Of a stretch of DNA of 58,697 nt, positions 42,282 through 58,697 are shown one piece after another. The position numbers were made by a program, and so were the translations under genes. Numbering within the stretch: position 1 is the stretch's first letter; each line of letters opens with the position of its first letter. This stretch comes from Desulfatirhabdium butyrativorans DSM 18734 (GTDB lineage: Bacteria > Desulfobacterota > Desulfobacteria > Desulfobacterales > Desulfatirhabdiaceae): the NCBI RefSeq assembly GCF_000429925.1, contig NZ_AUCU01000033.1, forward strand, positions 1 through 58,697, written 5' to 3'. Under the pieces are notes generated by a model. It was not told where the DNA came from. It searched no databases and worked only from the letters and a program-made list of their open reading frames with translations.

Positions 42282-42538
42282 AAACTCCCCCAGCTAGGAC
42301 GATGAAAGCAGGCATGATATTTTTCACCTCGTCGGCCACGTGGTCTTGGAGCTAACGGGCTGCCGTGGCATTCCGGCAATGCTCCGAGAGCTTTTTCCGG
42401 TCGCGTGATCGCCGAGGAGGCCAGGAAATGCTGGCGCGTGCGGAACCATCCCTCGATCTGGGGATCGAGCAAGTTCGGGTTGCCCTGAATGTGGGGCCGC
42501 GTTGTGTTGAAGAATCTGGCTATCTCCTCGTTCGTCAT
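42278..42538 (-). pseudogene. Truncated helicase N-terminus (remnant)
   Basis: The ATG overlaps the SNF2 helicase stop (TAATG), so this is the next gene of Module A. MTNEEIARFFNTTRPHIQGN and PQIEGWFRTRQHF resemble the N-terminus of DEAD/DEAH-type restriction-associated helicases. After about 38 residues the expected Walker A region is absent and the frame runs on with no family resemblance, ending at the HNH start. I read it as a helicase gene cut by insertion or deletion when the HNH-HerA module arrived. Confidence 0.5.
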
Positions 42539-45390: not shown

Positions 45391-45776
45391 TTGAATTTGC
45401 CTCCCTTGATGCCGGTGCCTTTGAGATATCGCATGAAGCCGCCGAGGAGCTTTTTTACTGTTTGCACCTGTTCAACAAACTCCTGAAAAGATCCTTCAGA
45501 CAGATAACCCTGGTCCAGCGCCACATATAACTGCGCTTCTATCTCGGCAGCAGAACCTTTTGCGACCGATAGAAAATGTATGAACTCCTGGGTTCCTTCC
45601 CTTTCAAAACCCTCAGCGATGTTGGAAACAATGGAAATAGCCGCCCGACGCATCTGATCTCGAAGCGCAAAATCCCTTGCAAAAGCACCTTCACCGGATA
45701 TGCTGTAAACGCGATTTACCAATTCCCTGGCCTTTTGCCACGCTTCAATATCCTGAAACCGTCTTATTGTCGCCAT
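45387..45776 (-). CDS. Four-helix bundle protein (bIVP/S23 family)
   Basis: This protein has 129 residues from MATIRRFQDIEAW; an in-frame upstream extension is repeat-coded (FRVSGFGFRVSG). It shows the family core DIEAWQKARELVNRVYSI, LRDQMRRAAISIVSNIAEGF, GTQEFIHFLSVAKGSAAEIE and QLYVALDQGYL. The fold is that of bacterial intervening-sequence proteins and of Avd, the RT accessory protein of diversity-generating retroelements. Its function outside those is unknown. The gene is bracketed by inverted heptamer arrays and sits between two defence genes that lack it in function. Its stop overlaps the helicase start. Confidence 0.88.
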   Translation of the reverse strand: MATIRRFQDIEAWQKARELVNRVYSISGEGAFARDFALRDQMRRAAISIVSNIAEGFEREGTQEFIHFLSVAKGSAAEIEAQLYVALDQGYLSEGSFQEFVEQVQTVKKLLGGFMRYLKGTGIKGGKFK

Positions 45777-45782
45777 GCTCGT

Positions 45783-45870
45783 TCCCAACCACAAACCCGA
45801 AACCCGAAACCCGAAACCCGAAACCCGAAACCACAAACCCGAAACTATGAAACTATAAAACTATGAAACC
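45783..45870. repeat. Right heptamer array of bIVP element
   Basis: Units run CCACAAA, CCCGAAA x5, CCACAAA, CCCGAAA, then CTATGAA/ACTATAA variants. CAACCACAAACCCGAAACCC at 45786-45805 is the inverted mate of 45343-45362. The upstream gene's last codons (LRVS and TAG at 45861) fall inside the array, so its C-terminus is repeat-coded. Confidence 0.9.
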
Positions 45871-46358
45871 CTTAACACATAGTATCCAATCGTTATACTC
45901 TTTCCCTGTTCGTCACGAATCAGGCGCGCCACGTTCATGGTGGCGCTCCCATCCCAGAGTGAGTACGACAGCCGTACCCGCTCGCCGTCCCGGCGGATGA
46001 ACAGCACCTCTTCGTCGGACGCTGTCAGCTCAAAAGATCTCTCATGGGTGCCGAAGCCGAACACCAGCCCACGCTGATCCCAACGAGCCTGGAATTCCTG
46101 AACGAAAGGCTTAACCCGGCTTTTCAGGAAATTCTGGGCCTCGGCCGGTTCCATGACATCGAGGAAGGTCTCGATGCCGCACACGAGCACCGTCTGACCG
46201 TTACCCGGCGCCTCAGCCGGCCAGGCGTTCATCCACCTGAGAGCTTCCCGCATGGACACAAGGGCACCCCCGCCGATGAGCGGGCCAAGGGTGAGCCGGT
46301 CAAACACGATGCTTGATCCACGGCGAAGCCAAGCGCTTGAGGACATATCCCGCATCAT
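45861..46358 (-). CDS. Module A accessory protein, DUF3780-like
   Basis: This protein has 165 residues when started at the ATG overlapping the DUF1156 stop (ATGATG). Visible features: LTLGPLIGGGALVSMREAL, TVLVCGIETFLDVMEP, RWDQRGLVFGFGTHERSF, EVLFIRRDGERVRLSYSLWD and GSATMNVARLI. Its position between a DUF1156 methylase and a helicase is that of DUF3780 proteins annotated as anti-phage associated; the family assignment is tentative. The final residues RVS and the stop come from the adjacent heptamer array, so the native tail may have been altered. Confidence 0.55.
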   Translation of the reverse strand: MMRDMSSSAWLRRGSSIVFDRLTLGPLIGGGALVSMREALRWMNAWPAEAPGNGQTVLVCGIETFLDVMEPAEAQNFLKSRVKPFVQEFQARWDQRGLVFGFGTHERSFELTASDEEVLFIRRDGERVRLSYSLWDGSATMNVARLIRDEQGKSITIGYYVLRVS

Positions 46359-49300
46359 TCGACCTCCGCCTCCAATTGTTCGAACAGTGTCATCTGCCTG
46401 AATGCCGGGCCCTTCTCCGGTTTGGCCCGCCAATGGCTGACAAGGTCAAGAGCGAGCTTGGCAGCCCGCCTGATTCCCGTGTCCGGGTCGGTCTGGGCGT
46501 ACCAGTCCAGAATCGGGTCGACCGATCTCTTGATCTGGAAGGTGGCCCGGTTGAGTTCGTCGGACACATTTACGCCGCTATTGGGCAGGCTCGCGCCGAT
46601 CAGGAAATGGGCCTGGTCCAGGTCGGTCTTGAGGATCTTGCGGTTTCGTCCCGGGGCCGTGAAATACTGGAAACGCTCCTCGATGGAGATCACGTTCACC
46701 TGCGTTCCGACCACCCGAATCCAGCCTCGCGCCTCGATGTCCCCCTGGGAAACGCCCGTGCCGCGTAGCATCTTGTGCAGCTCGTCCCGGGCCATGGAGC
46801 GGCGGCTTTGGAAGATGCGCAAAAAGAGACGCGATGCCGGTTCCGCCGCGTCGGGCGGACGGCGCTTTCCGTTCTCATCCTTGCCCGCCAGCAAATCGTC
46901 CAGGAGCAGGTTGATCCCAAGGAGCGCGTCCCGCACTCCCAACACCTGCCCGTCCCCCGTAAAGACCTGGCCGTAATGGCGGCTGTAGAACTCGAGGGCC
47001 TTTCCCCGCAGGATGACCAGAAGGTCCGATTCGGGAAGCTCCTTTCCGTGGGAATGCTCCAGAAGCTCCTTGAGACGGGCCGCCTCATCCTTGACCCACC
47101 GGCGCATCCGCGCCCAGCTCACGGCCTTTGGTTCTTCCAACCGTTTCCGGCAGACATGGACGATGTCGTATTCGATCTTCCGGGAACCGAACGCGCCGGT
47201 CGCGCCCTTGGTCTCGTCGCTGCGGATCGGGTAGGTGGCGACGAGAAGGTATCCGGCGTTGAACAAGGCCTCGAGCACATCCACCCACGGCGCATCGGCG
47301 CTATGGTGGAAGGTGAAAGCCATGAGACCGCCCTGCTTCAGGAGTCGTCCCGCCTCGGCCCAGCAGGCGGTGAGCGTCTGCTGATAGAAATCGGAGGCTG
47401 GTTCGGGCCTGTAGAGCGGGTTCGGGTCTTTTTCACCGAGTTCCTTGTTGCCGGTCAGTTCGCGCACCGTGGCGAGGATGCCGTTCGTGAGGAACCGCTC
47501 CCGCTCGTAGTCCTCCCGGTCATCGGGATGCTCGACGGTGTTGTCCACGGCCTCCACCGCGTGGGGAGTCCGTTCCGGCTCGAAGTACTTGCGCTCCGGC
47601 ATGCCGCGATACCACTTGAGCAGAGGCAGACGCATCCAGACGTAGAAGAAATCGGCCAGGTCAGCGTAGAACAGATTGTTCCCGAAGGGAGGGTCAGTTA
47701 TGACGAGATCGAAGATCGGTTGCGAGTTTCGGGTCCCTGGTTTCGGGTTGAAGAGGATGGAGAGGTCGGTGGATGAACCACAGAACATCTCTGTTCCAGG
47801 AACCACTGGATCAGCAGGGCCGACTTTGATGCTTTTTGATTTGCTGCCTTCTGGCAACATTGCGGCTTCCCATGGCTCCTTACACCATCCAAGTCCATCC
47901 AAAATGGTGGAGCAGCAGGAAGACCATCTGCCATACCCAAGAGGACCATAGGCATTTGTCTCAACGACAAGTTGCTTAGGATGGTAGTTTGCATTTGAAA
48001 GTGAAGGAGCAAGCTTGTCATAAGTCTGGTGCCAGAAGGAGAACATGTTCATCATGCGTATGTACTGCTGAAGCGCTCCCAGAGCCTGCTCGCGCACATC
48101 CAGCGGCCACTTGTCTTCCGGCGCTTCGGTGATGGCGCGCAGAAGCTGGGCGTGTACCAGGAGCTGGCGCGGGTTGAACATCTTCCACCAGTGGGTGTAT
48201 CCCCAACCAACGTTGACCCCGCCGTTGGCCCGCATCATGTAGGCGTCCCAGCACTCCTGACGCGGCCAGTATTCGTTCAGGTCGGTCTCATTCCGGTCGG
48301 CCCATTCACGCTCGGCCAGGATCAGTCGTTTCACATCGCCCGGCTCAATTGGTTTGAAGTAGCGGCCGTTGTAGCTGTACCCCTCGGAGTCACACTGCGG
48401 GCAGTGACATTGCAGGGCATAGGCCGCCACGGGCGCGGTGTGCTTCGTAGGCTTGACCGATTCGAGGATGTCCTGTTTCTTGCCGCATTTCTGGCAGGTG
48501 AAATAGGATTGCTGCGGCACCGTTCCCGTCCGCGTCTGGATGCGCGTTCCGTCGCTGAGAACGATCTCTCGGGGTAACCCGAACTTCTTGCGGTCCGCCG
48601 TGGACTCGGCGTCTTCCTCCTCTGCCATCTCTTCGTTTTCGCTGGCCTCTTCTCCGTCCTCTTCGGAAATCTCTTCATCCGCCAGACGCATGCGCCCGCG
48701 GACCTCGATGAAGCGCATGCCCTCAAGCCGCCTCTCGAACCACCGGGCGGTCATCTCCGGATCGGCCCCGGCGTAGCCACCTAATTCAGTTTCGAGTTTC
48801 GGGTTTAAAGTTTCGGGTTGTTTTTCGGAACCAGAAACCAGAAACTCGAAACCCGAAATCCCTTTCATCCAATCCGGATGAATCAGGAGATACATATAGA
48901 CATGGCGGCTCTCGATGCCGAGGTCCTTCTTTTTTACGTTTCCCACCTTGAACTCATAGGCGACCAGGCTCCCCATCTGCAGTCTTCTGCCCCGGTGATC
49001 CTCAAGAACCTTCTTGACCTTTCCCCCGGCGAATGAACCGCATTTCGGGCAATGCAAACCGGCCTCAGCGTTTAGCTTCTCCAAGGCTTGATTGATTCGG
49101 TCCTGCTTTTCCTCTTTGTTCCCCTTGCTGTAGTCCTTGAGGAGTTGTGCGAATTCCTGGCTCGTCTCTGTGAAGCTTGGCTCGTTATCGAGCACGACGC
49201 GTTCGACTCCCGGAGCCATGCGCGTCTCACCCAGCTCGATATGGAACTCATGACCGCAGGAGGGGCATGTCGAGGGGATGAAGTAGGCGGTCAGCCGCTT

Positions 49301-50170
49301 TTCGGCGATGACGGGCAAGCGGAAGATCGGTGTGCGATGATGGCAACCTCGCGCATTACAGGGTCCGTGCTTGGCCCAGAAGGTGTAGATGATTTCCGGC
49401 CCTTCCCACCGGTAATACTTCCTATGCTCGATTGGCAATTCGAAAATCTCATCTTGCTCTAGACTTTCTTTTAATCCTTCAACCCGAAACCCGGAACCAG
49501 AAACCCTAAACCATTTTCCCGTGTGTCCCCGCGCACATGTCGTCGTGTAGAAAGGCTGAACGAGGGGCTTGACCTTGGCCTCGATATCGTCGAAGAGCGC
49601 TTTGACTTGGCCGGGATCGCTGCATGCAAGCTCGTTCTTCGTCACGAACCAGGCGACGGGGTTGAGGTCGACACCTGTCATCTGGAAGCCAAGCCGAGCG
49701 CCTTCGACCAGGGTGGTCCCGCCGCCCATGAAGATGTCGAGTACCCGGAGCTTGCGAAAATGCCCCGCCTTCTGGTGGTTGCAGTAGTAATGGTCCCAGA
49801 CGCGTTTAGCCGCCTGGGATGGGTCATCAGGTGCAACGGTCGCGGCCGCGATCAGCAGGCTCCGAAAGACGCTGGAGCGGCGACGGGCCCACCACTTGGA
49901 CATCTGATAGATGGGCTTACCCGCGTTGCCTTCGAGGTTGGAGAGCGCGTTGACGGGCGCGATTGGAAAATCCACTTCCAGGCAGACAGGAGGTCTATTC
50001 GGATCGCTGAAATCAGCTACCGGAAGACGGATGGCCTTACCGAGGTTGGGCGGCTCGTAACCATTCGCTTTTTTCCGAGCCTTCTTCACAACCGCAGTTT
50101 CATTCTCCTGATTAAATTCTTCCATGCCGGGAATGGAATCTTGCTTCATTGACCGCTTTGCCATACTCAT
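46355..50170 (-). CDS. DUF1156 adenine-specific DNA methylase
   Basis: This large 1271-residue methylase opens with DUF1156 (DFPIAPVNALSNLEGNAGK, QMSKWWARRRSSVFRSLLIA). The AdoMet motif LDIFMGGGTTLVEGARLG is near 144-161, followed by VDLNPVAWFV. Several zinc knuckles (CPSCGHEF, CPKCGSF, CQKCGKKQ, CPQCDSEG) follow, and the catalytic VITDPPFGNNLFYADL near 823. Three in-frame heptamer-array insertions occur at about residues 220-233, 436-462 and 806-820. Its start overlaps the upstream nuclease-like stop (ATGA). It probably provides self-marking in Module A. Confidence 0.88.
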   Translation of the reverse strand: MSMAKRSMKQDSIPGMEEFNQENETAVVKKARKKANGYEPPNLGKAIRLPVADFSDPNRPPVCLEVDFPIAPVNALSNLEGNAGKPIYQMSKWWARRRSSVFRSLLIAAATVAPDDPSQAAKRVWDHYYCNHQKAGHFRKLRVLDIFMGGGTTLVEGARLGFQMTGVDLNPVAWFVTKNELACSDPGQVKALFDDIEAKVKPLVQPFYTTTCARGHTGKWFRVSGSGFRVEGLKESLEQDEIFELPIEHRKYYRWEGPEIIYTFWAKHGPCNARGCHHRTPIFRLPVIAEKRLTAYFIPSTCPSCGHEFHIELGETRMAPGVERVVLDNEPSFTETSQEFAQLLKDYSKGNKEEKQDRINQALEKLNAEAGLHCPKCGSFAGGKVKKVLEDHRGRRLQMGSLVAYEFKVGNVKKKDLGIESRHVYMYLLIHPDWMKGISGFEFLVSGSEKQPETLNPKLETELGGYAGADPEMTARWFERRLEGMRFIEVRGRMRLADEEISEEDGEEASENEEMAEEEDAESTADRKKFGLPREIVLSDGTRIQTRTGTVPQQSYFTCQKCGKKQDILESVKPTKHTAPVAAYALQCHCPQCDSEGYSYNGRYFKPIEPGDVKRLILAEREWADRNETDLNEYWPRQECWDAYMMRANGGVNVGWGYTHWWKMFNPRQLLVHAQLLRAITEAPEDKWPLDVREQALGALQQYIRMMNMFSFWHQTYDKLAPSLSNANYHPKQLVVETNAYGPLGYGRWSSCCSTILDGLGWCKEPWEAAMLPEGSKSKSIKVGPADPVVPGTEMFCGSSTDLSILFNPKPGTRNSQPIFDLVITDPPFGNNLFYADLADFFYVWMRLPLLKWYRGMPERKYFEPERTPHAVEAVDNTVEHPDDREDYERERFLTNGILATVRELTGNKELGEKDPNPLYRPEPASDFYQQTLTACWAEAGRLLKQGGLMAFTFHHSADAPWVDVLEALFNAGYLLVATYPIRSDETKGATGAFGSRKIEYDIVHVCRKRLEEPKAVSWARMRRWVKDEAARLKELLEHSHGKELPESDLLVILRGKALEFYSRHYGQVFTGDGQVLGVRDALLGINLLLDDLLAGKDENGKRRPPDAAEPASRLFLRIFQSRRSMARDELHKMLRGTGVSQGDIEARGWIRVVGTQVNVISIEERFQYFTAPGRNRKILKTDLDQAHFLIGASLPNSGVNVSDELNRATFQIKRSVDPILDWYAQTDPDTGIRRAAKLALDLVSHWRAKPEKGPAFRQMTLFEQLEAEVE
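47712..47752. repeat. In-frame heptamer insertion 3 in DUF1156 methylase
   Basis: GCGAGTTTCGGGTCCCTGG and TTTCGGGTT units translate as NPKPGTRNSQP, directly before the catalytic stretch FDLVITDPPF. The flanking protein sequence continues in frame. Confidence 0.7.
48785..48862. repeat. In-frame palindromic heptamer insertion 2 in DUF1156 methylase
   Basis: GTTTCGAGTTTCGGG on one side and CCCGAAACTCGAAAC-type units on the other form an inverted pair around a short centre. Protein reading is FEFLVSGSEKQPETLNPKLE. Two opposed arrays here look like the bIVP element without its gene. Confidence 0.8.
49473..49513. repeat. In-frame heptamer insertion 1 in DUF1156 methylase
   Basis: AACCCGAAACCCGGAACCAG then AAACCCTAAACC; on the coding strand this reads FRVSGSGFRVEG, a seven-residue period mirroring the seven-base unit. 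Confidence 0.75.
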
Positions 50171-50718
50171 GCCCCTGCAAGTTGGTTGAACTGAAGATGG
50201 TGTGGCCAGTCGATTTTCAGCATTTTTTCGGGCCGATCGTGCTTTCCGCTTTCACGGGTGATCCGTGTCTTTCTTTTAGGAATGCTGGTATGGCCGATAC
50301 TAACGAAGCATTGCCGGTATTTTTTCAGGAAATCAGATTCATCCCAGAACGCTTTTCCGATTTCCTGGCAATAAGCAAGAAAACATTGTGCGCCTTTTAG
50401 TTGCTGGATAATTTCAGTCGTCTGTCCTTTTGTTGCTTTCATTTCGATGTAAACAATGACCTTCCTGCCACCTTCGTTGGACACGATAACATAATCTGCT
50501 CGCTTGCATTCGCCTTTCGATCCGACAAAGACGGCATCAGGTGATGAAAAGGCATCCACTTTGATGATGACAGCATTTTCCGGAATACCGTAAATGACAG
50601 TAGAAGAGCGCGGATGATCCGGTTCGGCAAGTTCTGCCTTCATCCTGTTGTAATGATTGGAAAGCTGAACCTTGGCGGCATCCTTAATCATCTGGTTGAG
50701 GATGTCGATATCAGGCAT
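50167..50718 (-). CDS. PD-(D/E)XK-like nuclease candidate, partner of ATPase
   Basis: This protein has 183 residues from MPDIDILNQ, best spaced from GGGGAGGAG. No named family was recognised. A candidate PD-(D/E)XK core is Asp75 in KRADYVIVSNEG and Glu92/Lys94 in VIVYIEMKATKG, with a helix after it (QLKGAQCFLAYC). It overlaps the ATPase gene upstream by 8 bp, which makes a two-gene unit lodged between PglZ and DUF1156. The pair is visibly more AT-rich than its neighbours, suggesting a separate arrival. Confidence 0.6.
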   Translation of the reverse strand: MPDIDILNQMIKDAAKVQLSNHYNRMKAELAEPDHPRSSTVIYGIPENAVIIKVDAFSSPDAVFVGSKGECKRADYVIVSNEGGRKVIVYIEMKATKGQTTEIIQQLKGAQCFLAYCQEIGKAFWDESDFLKKYRQCFVSIGHTSIPKRKTRITRESGKHDRPEKMLKIDWPHHLQFNQLAGA

Positions 50719-52108
50719 TTTCATCTCCTCCCCAGACAATTTCTTCCTGGATGCGGTTCATAGCCTCGATGGTTTTATCGAAGCTTCGAGCCTCTATGCC
50801 CAATTTCGGATCGATATCGGCTGGAGTGAGCGTGGGCCATCGTGTCTTCTTTTTCCCTCCATCCAACAAAATCAGCGCTTCTTCAGCTATATAGACCTTG
50901 ACCCTGTCCGACGAAAGCAGCTCTTCCGGCTCGTAACTCTCATGTTCCATTATCCGCTTTAAATGCGGCTTATCTTGCTTGAGCATAATTAGGGTATTTA
51001 GTTCTTTAATGATATAGTCACTATGGGTAGTCATGAAAATCTTAATCCCGAGATTCATAAGCCTAGCAAACAACCGTGCGATTCGTCTTTGATTTTCGGG
51101 GTGGAGATTCAATTCCGGTTCATCGATAACAAAAAGATCACCAGCCTGGGCAACATGGCGCAAATAAAAACCCACATCCAGAAGGGACCGTACGGCGCTG
51201 GAACTTTCGTCCATGGTGAGCTTTAGACGTTTGTTTGCTTTTGGGACAAAAAAAAGTTCATCGCTTCGGGTTACTGTATATTCCCCGCCGATAATGTCGC
51301 TGAAGTCAGCCAATAATTCGGGATTCTTTTTTGAGATAAAACTTTCCTTTTTTGCCGCAGATTCCAACTGGCGGGTGAAATCGACGTTCGCCCTTACGGG
51401 TAAGGCATAATCTGAATACACCTTGGAAAGCAGTTCAAACATATTGAGTTCTGTTTCTAAAGTGCCCATTTGCTCCAGGAGCCGATTTCGGGCAAAATTG
51501 AGCTCCTTTCTGAATATTGCAGCGCCGGTCCTTTCCGCGCTGGCGATAAAAGCGTTCGGGAAAAGGTGTCCGAACAGGATTTCCTTAATGGCATCGCCGA
51601 TAACCTTTGAAATCAGAGAAACCGGAACTTTGCGTTCATCTTTTTCAACAAGCAACGATATGTGGACTTTGGGATCAGGAGGCTGTTTTAAGATGCTAAT
51701 GAGTTTGGTTTTAGCGGTTCCCATCGTCAGCTCAAAAGATTCCTTGGGTCTAATGTCATTTTTCGAAACGTCTATGCAGAAGGATGCATCCATGAAATGC
51801 TTTTCGGATGACGCAAAAACCCTTGGAAGCTGTTTCGTATATTCCTCACACCCTTTCTTTAGAATGGTTTCTGCACTCTTTATGTAATCATTCAAATCAA
51901 GTTCCGTGGAACCTTCCACCATAAGTTTTTGCACCGAATGTTTTGAGACACCGATCGAAAAAGCCTCCTTCCAGAACGAGAGAAACCCAAAAAGCGCATA
52001 AGTTGCATAGGTCTTTCCGGTATTGTTGGGACCGCATATGATTGTCATATCGCCGAGTTCAAATTCAGCCTGTTTTAAGGGGCCTAAATTCTTTAGTTTT
52101 ATAATCAT
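50711..52108 (-). CDS. OLD/ABC-type AAA ATPase
   Basis: This protein has 465 residues from MIIKLKNLGPL, preceded by AGGAGGCAAGG. Walker A GPNNTGKT is at 26-33. There is a long central insert. The C-terminal part has DESSSAVRSLLDVGFYL, Walker B LFVIDEPELNLHPENQRR, and the switch His in IFMTTHSDYIIKELN. This is the SMC-like ATPase type used in Gabija, Septu and retron-linked systems, typically paired with a nuclease, as it is here. Regulation of the small partner by the ATPase is inference. Confidence 0.85.
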   Translation of the reverse strand: MIIKLKNLGPLKQAEFELGDMTIICGPNNTGKTYATYALFGFLSFWKEAFSIGVSKHSVQKLMVEGSTELDLNDYIKSAETILKKGCEEYTKQLPRVFASSEKHFMDASFCIDVSKNDIRPKESFELTMGTAKTKLISILKQPPDPKVHISLLVEKDERKVPVSLISKVIGDAIKEILFGHLFPNAFIASAERTGAAIFRKELNFARNRLLEQMGTLETELNMFELLSKVYSDYALPVRANVDFTRQLESAAKKESFISKKNPELLADFSDIIGGEYTVTRSDELFFVPKANKRLKLTMDESSSAVRSLLDVGFYLRHVAQAGDLFVIDEPELNLHPENQRRIARLFARLMNLGIKIFMTTHSDYIIKELNTLIMLKQDKPHLKRIMEHESYEPEELLSSDRVKVYIAEEALILLDGGKKKTRWPTLTPADIDPKLGIEARSFDKTIEAMNRIQEEIVWGGDENA

Positions 52109-52121
52109 CCTTGCCTCCTGA

Positions 52122-53090
52122 CTATATCGCCTCAAATTCAATCCACGGGACAGCTACTTCCAAAAGGCTCAGCCCTCCATGACATACATGGGGAAAGCCG
52201 CCCTGGACTTTCCATTTTCTCTGGCCCATGACGATGTGGTGTTCGTTGTGGCTTATCACAATCGGGGGCATGAACCGTTCCTGCCAAGGGCCATCTACCT
52301 TCTTGTACCGGGCTGCGCCGAAGGTCTCGCGCAGCTTCTCGATAACATCCGGATCGATCTCCTCGCTCGAAAACAGCTTGCTCACTGCATAACCGTGGTC
52401 GGACGTGATGACCAGCTTTCTTCCTTGCCGAAGCCTGTTAGCGAATTTCCAGAATCCGTCGTCCTGGAGCGTTGCAGCCGCAGTCTTGTAGATTTGATCC
52501 GGGAGTTTCTTGTGAACGTGGATGAGATCGTCGAGCCAGCTATGCCACACGAAGACGTTGGACTCGTGGGGAATGCCCCCGACAGCGTCCTCAAATGGGA
52601 CGCTGATCACATCCGTGTAAGCCTTTGAGGCAAAGAGATTGAAACTGCCCGGAACGCCATTTCCCGCCAGATGACTGCGGGAAGGTATCCCCAGCGCATG
52701 GGCAAACTGGTCCGTGTCGGATGGTGCTTCAGCGCCGGTCACACGCACATCGGTGGGCTGGATATGTCTTGTTTGAGCGCCTCCCAAGAGCCAAGGTATC
52801 TCGCGCAGGGAGAGGGCATCCAGCACAAGGACGGCGCGGCCGATGCTGGATGGCCCAGCACACCATTCCTTTAAATGGGTTGCGGTCCTGGGAGCGGCTT
52901 CCGGGTAAGACCCCCATAATTCCCAGGCGGTCTCGGCAAGAAGGCGGTCGGGGGCGACAGTCTGGTTATGGAGATCGATTGGGGAGCCGCAGGTTACGGC
53001 CAGATCCCTTAATCGCGCGAAGACGCCGCTCCATGCGTCTGTCGACGAGGGAGAGTCCAGGATGATGTCCAACCAGGCAGGCGTGCTCAT
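52122..53090 (-). CDS. PglZ domain protein, short form
   Basis: This 322-residue protein belongs to the alkaline-phosphatase superfamily PglZ domain of BREX and related systems. Metal-binding segments are VLVLDALSLREIPWL (Asp91), LVITSDHGYAVSKLF (Asp231, His232) and HGGLSLLEVAVPWIEF near the end. It is well below half the length of BREX PglZ, so it is essentially the catalytic domain alone. The start overlaps the DUF499 stop (ATGA). Its role in defence is unknown even where essential. Confidence 0.82.
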   Translation of the reverse strand: MSTPAWLDIILDSPSSTDAWSGVFARLRDLAVTCGSPIDLHNQTVAPDRLLAETAWELWGSYPEAAPRTATHLKEWCAGPSSIGRAVLVLDALSLREIPWLLGGAQTRHIQPTDVRVTGAEAPSDTDQFAHALGIPSRSHLAGNGVPGSFNLFASKAYTDVISVPFEDAVGGIPHESNVFVWHSWLDDLIHVHKKLPDQIYKTAAATLQDDGFWKFANRLRQGRKLVITSDHGYAVSKLFSSEEIDPDVIEKLRETFGAARYKKVDGPWQERFMPPIVISHNEHHIVMGQRKWKVQGGFPHVCHGGLSLLEVAVPWIEFEAI

Positions 53091-55852
53091 TCCTCGCCTC
53101 CCTCCTTGGTGAACGTCACTTCCATGGAGGCTTTGAGACTCGAAGGAAGGCGTGTGAGAATCTGCTTCACCTGCTGTACGGTGAGGTCGTTGAATTCGAT
53201 CTTGGTCGTATTCAGCACGGCGCTGGGATCAATGCCCCACTTTTCGAAGCACGCGGTCAGGTTGATGCCGCTGGTCGCTTCGTTCGTCCGATGAACCTCT
53301 GTAGTCGTGATCACCGGGGGCACGGAAACTACAGGTCCTGTTGGCGGCGTGATTGGAAGTATCACCGGGGGCTGCGGCTCTGCGACGGAGGGGGGTTTCG
53401 GTGGAAGCACGGGATGATGAATCCTTGGGCCCGTAACAGTCGTACCTCCAACCACTGACGGAAGGCCAAGTCGAATCTGTCGCATCTCCTGCCCGGAGCG
53501 GAAAGCCCTGGACCTTATAGAGCGGAGCGCTTCCTCATCGCTCGAATGCTCAGGCAGGCGGCCAACCCAGGTCCCGCCGACATTGACCACGATTTTGCCC
53601 CGCGAGACGATCTTCAGAATCTCTTCATAGATGGGGGTCTCACCAAGGAACGGTATGGCATCCTTGGTGTCCGGCGGCGGCGGTTCAGTGAGTTCGTCGA
53701 GCAGGTCCCCCACCAGGCATGATTCCTTGGCGCGCTCCAAAACCAGGGACTGAAACTCGGCGGGATCGAAGAGGTCCTCGACAAGAGATTTCTCGACTGC
53801 GGTCGGGATTTCCCCGCCTTGCGCGGTCACCCGTTCCACGTCGAATATGCATTGATCTGGTTGCTGGTAATTCCAGCGCCGCAGCACGGCAAACTTGTCG
53901 AATCGCTTCTTCAGCGAGTCCCGAAGCGGCTTGTCGAATTCCTCTTTCAAGCCGCGGTATTTGGAATCATCACGCCACGCAATCGAGGTAAGGTAGGAGC
54001 ACCTTGAGCAGAAAAGAAGTTCTGCGTCCTGATAAATGCTTTTCACGCCGTCCGAAGGCAACAGGAATCGGACGGTGTTCCGCTTCGCAGGGACATGACT
54101 TGCAAGCCATTTCCCGAGAGCATCAACCCGCTTCCCCTCGCTGGTCTGCAGCGGCTCGGGTATGACAATGAGAACCGGCCTGTCCCATTTCGAAGGCTTG
54201 TCCAAATCATCGACATCAGCCCATGGGTCATTCTGCCAGTTTGGGCCCAGAGCTATGACGCGAGAGGAGGATTGCCTGGTTTCCGGAACAAGGATGTGCC
54301 GCAGCGTATTGCGTACGTGCTCAATATCTTTCCCCGGATAGACCGTTTGACCCACCTCGGCAGCCGAAACGCCCTGTTGCCATAGCTTGTCGTTTTTGGC
54401 CAAAGCACGGACTTTCGAGCGTGGATTTTCTTCCAAACCAAACCGCAGGCGACCGTCCGGGCTTTCTTCGCCATGGATGTTTATGCTGGCCTCAATCAAC
54501 TGAACGAGTTCGCCCTGAAACGAATTGTCGTCAACGGGCTGCTCCCGAGTAATGTCGAGCTGAAGTTCCTGTCGCGTGCCTCCCGCGTTTCTTCCGGGCG
54601 ACATGGATCGCATCCAGAGTGCGCTGACCAGTTCGCGCGCATGGGGTACAGAAGCTCCGATTGTCTTGACTGTTTCGAGATTTCGTTGGGCCACTTGCCG
54701 GAGCCTCTCCTGCTCGCCTACTGTGGCAATCGAATCCAGCAGCGATTGAACGCCGCACGCATCATCATCTACGAAGAAATCTGCCGGTGTGATGATCGGG
54801 ACTTTTTCTCCTCTTTCTCGGTAAGAGGAGGCGAGGATGCGAATAAGGTCGCGTGTCTCCTGAGCGGCTTCAGCCATGAGGATGTGATCTTCCAGTAGCT
54901 CCATAAGCTCCGGCGAGAATGGCCAGCAGGCCATGACCTCCGATACGACGCGAGATCTTTCGGATTCCGGAAGATGAAAAAAACGAAGCCGGAAACGCTC
55001 CGACGCATAGGAATCAAGAAGACTCCGTATCTCGTCCGTCGGGATGTTCTGGCGGTTCTCAAAGAGACGATATAGAAGCAGATTCTTCCGGTCTTCCTTC
55101 GCAGTGGGCCCCCGGAAATCAACGATGACGGGACCGTCACGGTGGACTTGTCTAAAGGCTTCCGTGTTGTTATTGAGCACCGAGACGACAAGAATCAGAA
55201 GATCTGGTCGGTCCTTAGATAGTTCAGACAGATTCTGGATGAAATTTTCGGCCCAGGTCCGGTATTTGATTCCTTCCGGCCCAGGCTGATCGCTCAGACC
55301 GTCGAACCACTTCTGGAATTCATCGAGAATCAGCGCTACGGGCTGAGCCTCGAACATCTCCTCCAATAGGGATCGCGGAGGGTATGGCCGACCCATCTGG
55401 TTGAACTTGCCTCTGAAAAAGTCTCCCTTGGGGTGACGCTCGAATATGAGGTCCCACAACAGAGGGTACTCATGGTTGTGGACCGGTTCCGAAATGGCAA
55501 AGAATCCGCCATCGAGAACAAGTCCACTCAAGTGCGGCGCGCCAAGTCTGTTTCCCCATTCGTTGGCCCATTTCTGAACCTGAGAGGACGATTCGACTGC
55601 GTGGTGCATCACGGCCATGATGTGAGATTTACCACGGCCCCGGTCCCCCATCAGGACAATGGGGCGCTTCGAGCGATCTGTGCTGACCGCGCGCAAAGCA
55701 GTCTGAACGTCCGCTGTTGGATATGTAATTGAAAGGATGAAATCCGGTGTTTTCTGAGCGGCTCCGGTGTTGTCCTTCCTGCGCAGGGCAATGGCTGTGC
55801 CCGGCATCTGGGAACCGAGGAATTCGTCTCGTAACTTTAGGTTCAGCATCAT
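53087..55852 (-). CDS. DUF499 ATPase (Module A core)
   Basis: This 921-residue protein has Walker A MGDRGRGKSH at 68-77 and Walker B-like ALILDEFQKWFDGL, with the arginine-rich STDRSKRPIVLM before the P-loop, the layout of DUF499/BrxC-PglY-like ATPases. Pro-rich (about 790-830, LPPKPPSVAEPQPPV) and C-terminal sensor segments (DLTVQQVKQILTRLPS) follow. DUF499 with DUF1156, PglZ and a helicase marks a defence locus related in content to DISARM and BREX. It is the first large gene after the HTH regulator. Confidence 0.88.
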   Translation of the reverse strand: MMLNLKLRDEFLGSQMPGTAIALRRKDNTGAAQKTPDFILSITYPTADVQTALRAVSTDRSKRPIVLMGDRGRGKSHIMAVMHHAVESSSQVQKWANEWGNRLGAPHLSGLVLDGGFFAISEPVHNHEYPLLWDLIFERHPKGDFFRGKFNQMGRPYPPRSLLEEMFEAQPVALILDEFQKWFDGLSDQPGPEGIKYRTWAENFIQNLSELSKDRPDLLILVVSVLNNNTEAFRQVHRDGPVIVDFRGPTAKEDRKNLLLYRLFENRQNIPTDEIRSLLDSYASERFRLRFFHLPESERSRVVSEVMACWPFSPELMELLEDHILMAEAAQETRDLIRILASSYRERGEKVPIITPADFFVDDDACGVQSLLDSIATVGEQERLRQVAQRNLETVKTIGASVPHARELVSALWMRSMSPGRNAGGTRQELQLDITREQPVDDNSFQGELVQLIEASINIHGEESPDGRLRFGLEENPRSKVRALAKNDKLWQQGVSAAEVGQTVYPGKDIEHVRNTLRHILVPETRQSSSRVIALGPNWQNDPWADVDDLDKPSKWDRPVLIVIPEPLQTSEGKRVDALGKWLASHVPAKRNTVRFLLPSDGVKSIYQDAELLFCSRCSYLTSIAWRDDSKYRGLKEEFDKPLRDSLKKRFDKFAVLRRWNYQQPDQCIFDVERVTAQGGEIPTAVEKSLVEDLFDPAEFQSLVLERAKESCLVGDLLDELTEPPPPDTKDAIPFLGETPIYEEILKIVSRGKIVVNVGGTWVGRLPEHSSDEEALRSIRSRAFRSGQEMRQIRLGLPSVVGGTTVTGPRIHHPVLPPKPPSVAEPQPPVILPITPPTGPVVSVPPVITTTEVHRTNEATSGINLTACFEKWGIDPSAVLNTTKIEFNDLTVQQVKQILTRLPSSLKASMEVTFTKEGGEE

Positions 55853-55868: not shown

Positions 55869-56081
55869 TTATCTCTTCCTGCCGTCAGGTGTCTGGCCCT
55901 GCTCGTTGTCTCCGGCCCCGCCTGTCTTCACCCACTCGTCCACTTCGTCTTTGCGGAATTTCCACAGGCGGCCCATCCGGTGTGCTGGCATTTGTTTTTC
56001 AGAAATCCACTTGTAGACCGTATCACGCTTGATGCCGAGATAGGCCGCAATCTCATCTACAGAGAGCCATCGATCTTCCAT
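55869..56081 (-). CDS. Excisionase/MerR-type helix-turn-helix protein
   Basis: This protein has 70 residues from MEDRWLSVDEIAAYLG. SVDEIAAYLGIKRDTVYKWI followed by MPAHRMGRLWKFRKDEVDEW is the standard DNA-binding excisionase fold. It lies 16 bp before DUF499 and behind the island's main promoter region, so it may regulate Module A rather than excise DNA. An upstream in-frame extension to 56195 looks non-coding. Confidence 0.85.
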   Translation of the reverse strand: MEDRWLSVDEIAAYLGIKRDTVYKWISEKQMPAHRMGRLWKFRKDEVDEWVKTGGAGDNEQGQTPDGRKR

Positions 56082-56206
56082 CACTGACTCCAGTCGCACA
56101 GGGTCTCGTCCCATTCCTGAACGGCCGCAGACCTTCGGTTTAACGAATCGGCCCCGTCCTGGATAGCCCCATCGGCTTCCATTCGGTCCAATCAAAACAA
56201 ACTGGT

Positions 56207-56280
56207 ATAAACTAAGCTAAAGACGAAGTGATTGTCAAACGGTATTTCTGGGTATTTCTGGGTTTCTCCGGGTTTGACCG
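56207..56280 (-). promoter_or_regulatory. Promoter with decamer repeats driving Module A
   Basis: On the minus strand TTGACA (56233-56238) is a consensus -35 with an AT-rich, weak -10 around 56207-56215. Directly upstream, 56241-56280 is four decamers in a row (GGTATTTCTG twice, GGTTTCTCCG, GGTTTGACCG on the + strand). The position fits an operator or activator site. Confidence 0.5.
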
Positions 56281-56288
56281 AACGGAAG

Positions 56289-57362
56289 TTACCGTGGCCA
56301 GCAAGGCTCACCGAGAGGTGCAAACCTCTTCGAGATCGGGTCCTCCCCCACAAAGAGCCAAGCGGGGAGGACGTTTCTATTTATCCGGACAGGGATCAGG
56401 ACGCGGCGGTAGAGGCAGGGACCGCCGGGGCGGAACCCCTCCAGCCGGTCGATGGCCGGAAGGCGGGTCTCGGGGGCGTCGAAGGCAAGAAGCTCCCCGT
56501 ACACGGGGCCCCAGGGCACGCCTGTGCCCTTCTTCGAGAGCCGGTCGGGGGTTGGCTCGGGATTGGACATGCGGGCCGTCACGTGCGCTTGTGTGGCCAC
56601 GTCGGCGAGCGGAGTGGTGGTCCCGACGGCGAGGATGTCCTCTTCCGGGACCTGCAGGACCGGGATTCCGGAGGATGTCTCGAAGAGGCGGCCGCGGACC
56701 ACGGCGTCCTCCGCCAGGACGGCGTCGAGGTATGCGGGGTCCGAGGCGTAAAGGACGGCCTTGCGGCGGGGATGCCAGCGCAGTTCCAGCGGTCGGTTGC
56801 CCTTGAGCACGATGACGGTTTGCGGATCGGTCCGGCAGGCGATGACGGCGGTGATCTGCCCGCGGCAGCGCCTGAGCCGCGCCTTGAACCGCCCGATATC
56901 CATGGCACCGTCCCGCGCGGCGTTCGCGGCCAGGCGGAACAGAATCTCGCTGTCCACCTCGGCGAAGCGCCGCACCTTCTAGCGCCGGAACAGGTAGTCG
57001 GCGTTGTAAATGGTGCCGTTGTGGGTGCCGATCACCTCCCCGGCGCGGATCGGGTGGTTGTTGCTGTTGACCCGATCGTCCCCTCGGGTGCGCCACCGGG
57101 TATGGCCGAGCAGAAGCGTGACGCGGTTGTTTATGCCGGCCAGGAGATCGGCGTAGGCCTTGTCCGTGACGAACCGCTCGGCCGTCCCCGGGCGCTTGAA
57201 CAGCCGGTGGCCGCCGTCGGTGTCGAGCCATGCCGCGCCCGTGGCATGGGGACCGCGCTCCTCGCTCAATACAAGCAGGCGGGTGAAGAGCCAGGCGAAA
57301 TGCTCCTGCTCCTCGGCGCGCCGCCGTTTTTTTCCAAAGATGACGCCTGCGAGCCCGCACAT
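56289..57362 (-). pseudogene. Class II glutamine amidotransferase fused to GGCT/AIG2 domain, interrupted by TAG
   Basis: A single frame of 358 codons carries one internal TAG at 56976-56978. Before it lies a class II amidotransferase domain: catalytic Cys2 in MCGLAGVIFG, ERGPHATGAAW, LLLGHTRWRT and IGTHNGTIYNADYLF. After it, FAEVDSEILFRLA continues the same domain, and a gamma-glutamylcyclotransferase-like domain follows (WGPVYGELLAFD, LEGFRPGGPCLYRR). The start overlaps the recombinase stop (ATGA). A nonsense mutation is the simplest reading. Confidence 0.7.
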
Positions 57363-58048
57363 CAGGGTTTCCCTCCCTGCGGATCGACGACAAAACCGCG
57401 GAAGACGCCCTCGGCGTACCCCTTCGGGTGCTCCTCGATCCAGCGCGCGGCGTCGGACCAGCCGAGCTCACCGGCCAGCCGGGCGACGACCGGTCGGTCG
57501 AGCATGTTGGTCTGCCCGGAGAGTCGGACCGCGTCGATGCCCTGCCAAACAATGGCAGGAATCGGTATCCGCGTAGGTTTGTCGTCCTGTACCTGGGCAA
57601 GGCCGTTTTTGATCAGGGCATCGAGGAAGGATGCGGCCTTTTCCTCCGGCGTATCGCCCCGGACCTGTGCAGCTTCGTCTTCGTTGACGATCAGCTTTCC
57701 GCCCTTCGGGTCCACGTCATACCCGAGAACCGGCATCCCGCCGACCCACTTGCCCGTGCGCCGCGTGGCGGACATCTTGTCGCGGGTGCGCTTCGAGATA
57801 ATCTCCCGCTCGAACTGGGCAAAGGACAAAAGGATACTCAAGATGAGCCGCCCCATGGAGCTGACCGTATTGAACTGCTGGGTGACCGCGACGTAGCTCA
57901 CGGCGTGCTTGTCGAAAAGTTCCATCATGCGGGCCAAGTCCAGGAGGGACCGGCTCCGCCGGTCGACCTTATAAGCCACCACGCAGTCGATGTCGCCCGA
58001 CTCGATGCCGGCGAAGAGCCGCTTGAGGGCGGGCTTCTCCCCGGCCAC
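57362..58048 (-). pseudogene. Serine recombinase, N-terminally deleted, with DUF5049-like tail
   Basis: AYKVDRRSRSLLDLARMMEL, VSSMGRLILSILLSFAQFER, IISKRTRDKMSATRRTGKWV and GGMPVLGYDVDPKGGKLIVN belong to the large serine recombinase family. The segment with the catalytic Ser is missing: an ATG after GGAGG at 58065-58067 opens MSGNNN in another frame and then joins this sequence. After EDEAAQVR the recombinase middle is also gone and a DUF5049-like tail follows (IPIPAIVWQGIDAVRL, LDRPVVARLAGELG). It is probably inactive. Confidence 0.75.
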
Positions 58049-58063
58049 GGTTATTGTTTCCGC

Positions 58064-58207
58064 TCATTCGTTCCTCCTTTCGGGTTTGAGGCTCCTGCCC
58101 TTGGCTGCGGCATCGGCGATACCGAACAAGAGGAACCCGTTCAACTTGCTCGCGGTGACCTCCTGGGCGATGGCTGAGAGGGACTTGTACCGTCGCACTC
58201 GAAGCCG
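58064..58207 (-). pseudogene. DUF2924 C-terminal remnant
   Basis: The minus frame ending in the TGA at 58064-58066 reads RRYKSLSAIAQEVTASKLNG then FLLFGIADAA. This matches the end of DUF2924 proteins, which usually precede this kind of recombinase. Its upstream part is replaced by the island repeat. Stop and next ATG overlap. Confidence 0.45.
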
Positions 58208-58377
58208 GGGTTGCACCCGGCCCTCGGACTTCGAAACGGAGGATCAGGGTAAATGTGCGGGCGGGCGTAAGTCAGCGTGGACACGCCTGAAACGACAAGA
58301 TCCCGAGGGGATCAGCCCACGGGGTCTTGCGTTCAAGAAGAACCGCTGAAATCAGCAGATGAATTTTTGGCTCCCCG
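58208..58377. repeat. Right direct repeat of the island
   Basis: This is the counterpart of 32199-32377 in the same orientation, about 170 bp with scattered substitutions and small gaps. It ends within TTGGCTCCCCG, the reverse complement of a tRNA acceptor end (CGGGGAGCCA). Confidence 0.85.
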
Positions 58378-58395
58378 AGTAGGACTCGAACCTAC
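58369..58395 (-). tRNA. tRNA-Asn-like 3' fragment (T arm and acceptor)
   Basis: On the minus strand GTAGGTTCGAGTCCTAC forms a T arm and TCGGGGAGCCA follows as acceptor with CCA, as in tRNA-Asn. CTGTTAATCC, like the Asn anticodon arm, lies just 5', but a hairpin (AATCCCGCC, loop, GGCGGGATT at 58397-58416) intervenes and no D arm is present. Not a complete tRNA; probably an attachment-site remnant. Confidence 0.6.
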
Positions 58396-58414
58396 AATCC
58401 CGCCGAAGGCGGGA

Positions 58415-58672
58415 TTAACAGCCACAGAGATCTTTTAGATAACGTGAAATACCCCTGTTTTTGATTTTACGTTCGAGCCGGATCGATTCAGAACGGTTTT
58501 CCACTTGGGTGGACCATATCAATCGCCATGGACCTTCAAAGCGTTTGGTGGTTTGAGCCAAATGGTTATTTGGGTCATTGTGTTGAGCCAAACGTCTTTC
58601 AAGGTCGCCTGTTTGTCCGCAATAATAGCGTCCACTCGATTGGCTTTGCAGCACATATACCCAAAAAGCCAT
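58415..58672 (-). CDS. Small GIY-YIG nuclease domain protein
   Basis: This 85-residue single-domain protein has WVYVLQSQSSGRYYCGQTGD (the GIY-YIG pair appears as VYV and YYCGQT), then LERRLAQHN and the C-terminal RLERKIKNRGISRYLKDL. It belongs to the UvrC/Slx1-like small nuclease group. Its stop codon and last codons lie in the anticodon-arm-like sequence next to the tRNA fragment, just outside the island repeat. Role unknown. Confidence 0.85.
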   Translation of the reverse strand: MAFWVYVLQSQSSGRYYCGQTGDLERRLAQHNDPNNHLAQTTKRFEGPWRLIWSTQVENRSESIRLERKIKNRGISRYLKDLCGC

Positions 58673-58697
58673 AAAAAAAGCCCTGCCAGTTGATTTC

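Follow-up and report, generated by a model that had tools for sequence, protein, structure and literature searches.

A small, stand-alone GIY-YIG nuclease gene of Desulfatirhabdium butyrativorans probably stands behind the only intact tRNA-Asn gene found in this genome and ends inside a second, broken copy of it. Dozens of related genomes carry the same layout, which looks like an undescribed mobile gene living at tRNA genes without destroying them. We favour, with moderate confidence, the reading that the element is a chromosomal, free-standing, homing-type mobile GIY-YIG gene specific for one tRNA gene. No description of the bacterial arrangement of tRNA, nuclease and broken copy was found in the open-licence PMC literature, a body of text outside which most subscription papers and preprints lie.

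A nuclease gene that ends in a broken tRNA-Asn copy

The analysed stretch of 58,697 nucleotides (the window) is contig C19 of the 73-contig, 4.48-Mb genome of strain DSM 18734, and position 58697 is the end of that contig. An 85-codon ORF on its minus strand (Table 1) encodes a GIY-YIG protein (PF01541, 56.9 bits against a cut-off of 22.6 in a Pfam profile search), and the stop codon TAA (58415-58417), at the end of GTTAA, falls within tRNA-derived sequence. Read on the same strand, positions 58425 to 58368 are GTGGCTGTTAA - TCCCGCCTTCGGCGGGA - TTGTAGGTTCGAGTCCTACTCGGGGAGCCA, corresponding to nucleotides 28-38 of tRNA-Asn, a 17-nt hairpin and nucleotides 47-76 (numbered after the 76-nt intact gene at L002). 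The intact tRNA has CCACTAGG where the copy carries the hairpin, the arms of which reach 9 bp once the flanking AA/TT are counted; the hairpin pattern has a single match in the window, compared with 0.03 expected. Allowing up to 3 mismatches, the 29-nt stretch 58368-58396 occurs once more in the genome, with full identity, at C41:14916-14944, inside the intact tRNA-Asn(GTT) at L002.

Table 1. Features at the end of the window.
Feature	Position	Strand	Basis
Small stand-alone GIY-YIG gene, SLX1/UPF0213-like, 85 aa	58415..58672	-	Pfam PF01541
nt 28-38 of the tRNA-Asn copy, covering the anticodon loop and part of its stem (GTGGCTGTTAA) and shared with the end of the ORF	58415..58425	-	chain alignment to tRNA-Asn and sequence
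Perfect hairpin TCCCGCC-TTC-GGCGGGA (minus strand), 17 nt, in place of tRNA nt 39-46	58398..58414	.	pattern search and chain alignment
nt 47-76 of the tRNA-Asn copy: last part of the variable loop, T arm, 3' acceptor strand and CCA	58368..58397	-	no mismatch to the intact C41 gene
Probable 3' half of the terminator of the intact tRNA-Asn (GGCAGGGC-T7)	58673..58697	-	C41 counterpart and uninterrupted equivalent in L046

The initial annotation had described the last nuclease codons as leading through Asn anticodon-arm sequence and a perfect hairpin to a T arm and acceptor, and the sequence agrees; within its Asn-like segment, CTGTTAATCC, CTGTTAA is tRNA, whereas TCC already belongs to the hairpin. 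What it called half a tRNA is indeed tRNA-derived: it copies the host's own tRNA, by displacement or duplication, and a hairpin interrupts it. The intact overlapping tRNA that it named as a possible objection was not found: ARAGORN detects no tRNA in the window, and a permissive Rfam scan of 56000-58697 returned neither a tRNA nor a group I intron, with sub-threshold chance matches only. A tRNA group I intron carrying a GIY-YIG ORF was therefore rejected, the tRNA being intact in relatives as well. Immediately after the broken copy, approximately 130 nt (58231-58367) are shared with 2 other carriers (L048 543-676, 84% identity; L020 1165-1291, 77%).

The annotation had also proposed looking for an intact tRNA-Asn elsewhere in the genome, and the only one found sits 18 nt before the end of contig C41. 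The last bases of C41, GCCCTGCC, would be one half of a terminator and the end of the window the other, suggesting that the 2 contigs probably adjoin; since no overlap of at least 5 nt between C41 and C19 was found, we infer this adjacency. At L046, which encodes a protein 72% identical, the order of tRNA, terminator and gene is unbroken. Thus, C41 is the probable neighbour of C19, with tRNA, terminator, nuclease gene and broken copy in a row, and what had been taken for an island edge is a contig end.

The nuclease is a single minimal domain akin to the UPF0213 proteins and falls within the Slx1-like/UPF0213 group; its closest PDB sequences, 1zg2 (E 1.7e-5) and 1ywl (E 3.1e-4), are both UPF0213 proteins, and no NCBIfam family matched at 1e-5. 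Near-invariant residues among the 61 strong relatives (defined below) are Y6 (59 of the 59 rows with a letter), Y17 (57/58), G19 (59/59), R27 (60/60), H31 (61/61) and E67 (58/59), so that the 2 tyrosines, glycine, arginine and glutamate that we take to be the catalytic residues of the GIY-YIG superfamily are kept in this protein group. Sequence comparison indicates that the enzyme is under purifying selection, with dN/dS of 0.05-0.38 in the 6 of 17 close pairs for which dS is defined; a stop codon interrupts 6 of the 61 strong units. Prokaryotic stand-alone Slx1-like/UPF0213 proteins (PMC1564403; PDB 1zg2, 1ywl) have the same minimal domain, the solved members carry no assigned role, and the available part of that source describes no tie to tRNA copies.

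At E 1e-5, the window protein matches nothing in a phage collection of 50,697 records, nor anything in a plasmid collection at 1e-5; thus, no vehicle for the gene was found among phage or plasmid records. Elsewhere in the window, a resolvase-family recombinase gene with a DUF5049 match (57362-58048) adjoins the element, and a defence-like cluster (42538-55852) contains a helicase with HmaA as its best PADLOC match (E 7e-100), a methylase matching HmaB (4e-28) and a gene pair matching PDC-M47A (2e-231) and PDC-M47B (2e-80).

The layout recurs behind intact tRNA genes, with the isotype following the protein lineage

Protein searches for further members of the group covered 38 relatives, named genome contigs in one scan (35 loci), the 395 phylum genomes (27 of them with a match at E 1e-10 or below) and, with an Asp-type query, 194 genomes of the order (31). 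Removal of duplicates left 114 units, 106 of which have at least 200 nt of upstream sequence; units scoring at least 74 bits against the window, L005, L006 or L007 protein are called strong. Hosts in the named-contig scan include Desulfobacterota-type bacteria, Nitrospirota, Acidobacteria, Methylomirabilota and Sumerlaeota.

Of the 55 strong units with at least 200 nt upstream, 40 are preceded within 350 nt by an intact same-strand tRNA gene called by ARAGORN (25 Asn, 13 Asp, 1 Ile and 1 Ala); below 74 bits the figure is 8 of 48 units, several of these being fragments of such genes. Members of the AWF subfamily scoring at least 74 bits are likewise found behind tRNA-Asn (3 of 4 units). The upstream tRNA is on the opposite strand in 1 of the 106 units, no unit (0/106) has an intact tRNA within 350 nt downstream, and the median distance from tRNA to protein match is 53 nt (41 cases). 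In a quick protein tree based on few columns, the Asn group of 41 rows holds Asn labels only (27 rows, the other 14 being without an intact tRNA in the available sequence), and the 44 labelled rows, with 4 isotypes, require 4 changes. The tRNA isotype thus follows the protein lineage, as judged from the sequences.

The proposal to survey small GIY-YIG genes for adjacent tRNA halves was borne out: among 61 strong units, 36 have a same-strand tRNA copy of at least 30 bits that overlaps the ORF or comes after it, a feature seen in none of 48 weak units and, on the opposite strand, in none of 109. At 30 bits, no copy is seen downstream in the remaining 25 strong units, and an intact tRNA is missing from 15 of 55, some of them lying at contig ends or N runs. 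The start of the copy is often within the D arm or the anticodon arm, and the C-terminus of the protein consequently reads tRNA sequence. Where comparison is possible (16 of 41 labelled loci), the 3' block of the copy finds its best or equal match in the host's own tRNA in 16 of 16 detectable loci, strictly the best in 8, indicating that the copy is local and derives from the host's own tRNA rather than being brought from afar. Accordingly, the earlier hint that tRNA genes are targeted holds as an association, made up of isotype by lineage, an intact tRNA upstream and broken copies of the same tRNA.

Genomic islands integrate at the 3' ends of tRNA genes by means of integrases, and a repeated 3' part of the tRNA marks one of their sides. 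An ordinary remnant of such an island, with the GIY-YIG gene as a passenger, would explain the 3' tRNA repeat and the nearby resolvase-family gene (57362-58048), yet we disfavour it as highly improbable. In the loci read, a single small GIY-YIG ORF and no integrase lies between the tRNA and its 3' repeat, for which reason an integrase-type island was rejected; moreover, the copies contain hairpins and 5' tRNA parts, and the recombinase gene of the window is outside the tRNA-to-copy interval.

Perfect hairpins occupy recurrent positions in the copies

Among 93 distinct inserts between copy segments, in a collection that also lists chance segment pairs without hairpins, 55 are perfect hairpins with arms of at least 5 bp and 38 are not, compared with a mean of 1.6 and a maximum of 5 perfect hairpins in 200 shuffles. 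The most prominent position in Asn copies is 24|35, with 32 inserts, of which 28 have arms of at least 5 bp, spread over 20 loci, and further inserts recur at 38|47, 38|54, 10|16 and 55|66; in Asp and Ile copies, the whole anticodon arm is swapped (27|45, 29|47). The arm sequences vary among genomes. Hairpins of the TCCGC type predominate at 6 of the 7 loci of the L006 protein lineage and at 1 of the 28 remaining loci (p = 3e-5), a comparison in which the lineage was picked post hoc and phylogeny was left uncorrected. At L008 (approximately 1070-1330 in reverse orientation), pseudo-copies of tRNA-Val and tRNA-Asp, their anticodon arms swapped for a TCCCG..CGGGA hairpin, stand upstream of the intact genes; the only nuclease gene present there is of the Asp type, although the tRNA-Val pseudo-copy is also hairpinned.

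The window's own genome contains TCCCGCC-NNN-GGCGGGA at 49 places (e.g., L033-L042; control, 0), and the copies that were read belong to a larger palindromic repeat, ATTCCGGCGAAA...GGAATCCAG. Capture of dispersed repeats thus looks true in this genome, but it was rejected as a general source: all 4 copies of the G036 hairpin are at tRNA-Asp loci, and tRNA-copy hairpins are dispersed neither in the sampled 0.29 Mb of G326 nor in 0.40 Mb of G035, with 1 case in 0.35 Mb of G108. The idea that the number of hairpins tracks the presence of the gene was also discarded, as the same pattern occurs 50 times in G028, in which the protein search of the 38 relatives gave no strong match, and 0 times in most relatives.

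Sister-lineage GIY-YIG genes that are not associated with a tRNA (L065, L067, L072-L075, L132, L121, L031) lie amid short palindromic repeats, often on both sides, of either the GAGC-N-GTCGA type or the ATTCCCGC..GCGGGAAT type. In 53 units of the weaker or AWF groups, 2 palindrome motifs have 28 matches in the 31.0 kb within 300 nt of the gene and 11 in the 140.0 kb farther away, an approximately 11-fold higher density, with perfect palindromes counted on both strands and the motifs chosen after some loci had been seen. This enrichment beside sister genes suggests a palindrome-based mechanism.

Under such a mechanism, small GIY-YIG nucleases could be paired with short palindromes in the way that RAYT transposases are with REPs: the enzyme would cut structured DNA, hairpins would be inserted or copied at the cuts, and tRNA genes would be targeted because their arms are inverted repeats, with the nuclease gene carried along. 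We regard this as possible but unlikely. It would fit the fixed recurrent hairpin sites, the association of hairpin type with protein lineage, the approximately 11-fold density of known-looking motifs near weaker and AWF genes and the hairpinned copies found upstream of intact tRNAs, away from the gene; on the other hand, the tRNA-copy hairpins are mostly not dispersed (G036, G326 and G035, with 1 in G108), and both the L006 lineage and the motifs were selected post hoc. A wider proposal, which we put forward only tentatively, is that Slx1-like GIY-YIG genes form a large unrecognised mobile class working with short palindromes. Each lineage's enzyme would recognise one tRNA gene, and its repair or copying would write lineage-typical hairpins into the arms of that tRNA, so that the intact gene is spared but comes to be surrounded by arrays of copies with hairpins, with sister lineages using dispersed palindromes (GAGC-GTCGA, dRS3-like) instead.

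Upstream copies and turnover at an orthologous site

An exact pattern for the hairpinned Asn copy matches 17 places in 8 of the 395 phylum genomes (reversed control, 0), and such copies are found in 5 of 27 genomes with a strong gene compared with 3 of 368 without (p = 5e-5). One of the latter 3 has a GIY-YIG relic (judged by eye), one carries another GIY-YIG subfamily, and in one nothing was seen. The Asp-type pattern occurs in just 2 of 395 genomes, suggesting that exact patterns miss most Asp loci. Many hairpinned Asn copies lie upstream of the intact tRNA and consist of its 5' part with 1 or 2 hairpins; some are in tandem (L156, at 76-77 nt; L157; L162), and L158 has 4 3' copies between tRNA and gene and 1 after the gene.

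With the upstream flank of the G044 element, the orthologous tRNA-Asn was located in all 10 congeneric genomes; the other 9 are 75-79% identical to this flank. At this site, 2 congeners have a window-type gene, 1 has a hairpinned copy with a remnant of about 9 codons (by eye), 4 have a different GIY-YIG subfamily (one match being short and weak), and in 3 no GIY-YIG gene was seen, one of these having just 122 nt of downstream sequence. The turnover has, on sequence grounds, the pattern of repeated gain and loss.

Different GIY-YIG subfamilies behind the same tRNA-Asn in one genus, together with tandem arrays, which suit unequal exchange, would fit another account, in which the region after a tRNA is a permissive landing site used by ordinary recombination and the copies are decayed by-products of unequal exchange. 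We consider this rather improbable: it does not lead one to expect isotype fidelity along the protein tree, a gene always on the strand of the tRNA at a median distance of 53 nt (41 cases) or perfect hairpins at fixed positions. Less probable still, indeed very unlikely, is a toxin-like role, in which the enzyme would act on either the tRNA molecule or its gene, with the hairpinned copies serving as decoys or antitoxin RNAs. Known GIY-YIG enzymes cut DNA, the copies differ widely and many are decayed or absent, and the elements are often lost at the orthologous site. The isotype pairing would nevertheless suit such a role, and a part in RNA metabolism has been suggested for prokaryotic Slx1-like domains in the accessible portion of one report (PMC1564403).

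A proposed homing-type gene specific for one tRNA gene

The layout matches that of known mitochondrial mobile ORFs, and the enzyme class and tRNA link match those of SegB, for which reasons we take the element to be a homing-type gene specific for a tRNA gene. The small GIY-YIG enzyme would cut, in the region of the anticodon arm, a tRNA gene that belongs to a single isotype (Asn in this case) and is still unoccupied; repair from an occupied chromosome would place the nuclease gene behind a complete tRNA, leaving translation unharmed, and the remainder of the old tRNA would stay downstream as the broken copy. Palindromic hairpins would have replaced the anticodon-arm sequence of the copy, and sometimes its D- and T-arm sequence, removing the presumed cut site and shortening the direct repeats by which the element could be deleted. 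While the layout, its recurrence, the isotype fidelity, the host-tRNA origin of the copy, the recurrent hairpin sites, the turnover at one site and the purifying selection on the enzyme can be read from the sequences, we infer the DNA cleavage, where it falls, how the break is repaired and what the hairpins do. The hairpins may either remove the cut site and break direct repeats or have been left by a separate mechanism that works through palindromes.

The element varies in presence and absence at a fixed site among close relatives (the 10 congeners), the target appears to be left functional (ARAGORN calls an intact tRNA beside 40 of the 55 strong units with enough upstream sequence), and the copies are broken at the anticodon arm whereas the intact tRNA keeps that sequence, a point that bears on the immunity of the occupied allele. 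Several observations count against homing. The intact upstream tRNA retains the presumed target with no visible protection; homing from a distant donor should leave a hybrid intact tRNA, whereas the intact tRNA and the copy alike resemble those of the host; the 5' copies upstream and the tandem arrays at several loci go beyond what simple homing needs; no origin for the hairpins follows from it; copy or intact tRNA is missing from a part of the strong units; a different GIY-YIG subfamily stands at the same tRNA flank in 4 of 10 congeners, so that the flank may simply be permissive; and in the window's own genome the tRNA and the nuclease gene are neighbours only by the probable joining of 2 contigs.

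SegB of T-even phages is a free-standing GIY-YIG homing endonuclease that is encoded beside tRNA genes, cuts inside them and drives segmental amplification through microhomology or recombination that links the 5' portion of a tRNA gene with the 3' portion of segB (PMC13096335). The present element shares with it the enzyme class and the tRNA link, cleavage being presumed here. SegB is phage-borne, with no tRNA isotype preference reported in the accessible part of that source, whereas the present element is chromosomal, isotype-faithful and accompanied by hairpin-scarred tRNA copies (PMC13096335). As the window protein has no phage match at E 1e-5, close kinship with SegB is unsupported, and the 2 would be distant kin through their shared superfamily only.

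The anatomy is that of the fungal mitochondrial mobile ORFs (mORFs) with carboxy-terminal duplication, such as those in Allomyces atp6 and Glomus atp6, atp9, cox2 and nad3: a working gene, an endonuclease ORF (GIY-YIG in Glomus atp9) and the displaced native 3' end (PMC3630166). The mORFs differ in having protein-coding mitochondrial targets and an intact gene that is a host-donor hybrid, and the part of that account available to us describes no hairpins in the displaced part (PMC3630166). As far as these sources could be seen, neither SegB nor the mORFs combine a bacterial chromosomal setting with fidelity to one tRNA isotype, and neither has hairpinned copies.

If the homing reading is correct, a common bacterial mobile gene uses essential tRNA genes as an unbroken home, like integrases but with one small nuclease, and is the bacterial chromosomal counterpart of phage SegB and the fungal mitochondrial mobile ORFs. 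It would account for the odd C-termini of many annotated GIY-YIG proteins and for some contig breaks at tRNA genes, and would provide a natural set of enzymes, each specific for a single tRNA gene. The hairpins raise a direct question, namely which reaction places perfect palindromes at fixed positions of tRNA arms.

REP/RAYT systems likewise associate a small nuclease-like gene with short palindromes, but RAYTs are tyrosine (Y1) transposases and REPs are dispersed, whereas the present protein is a GIY-YIG enzyme and its hairpins are mostly bound to their loci, as far as the parts of the reports at hand go (PMC3116915, PMC2817692). Membership in RAYT/REP was rejected on these grounds, the hairpins not being dispersed in G036, G326 and G035. 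As a separate observation, a frame resembling a Y1 (RAYT-type) transposase begins directly past a GIY-YIG remnant (by eye) after the tRNA-Asn at L170.
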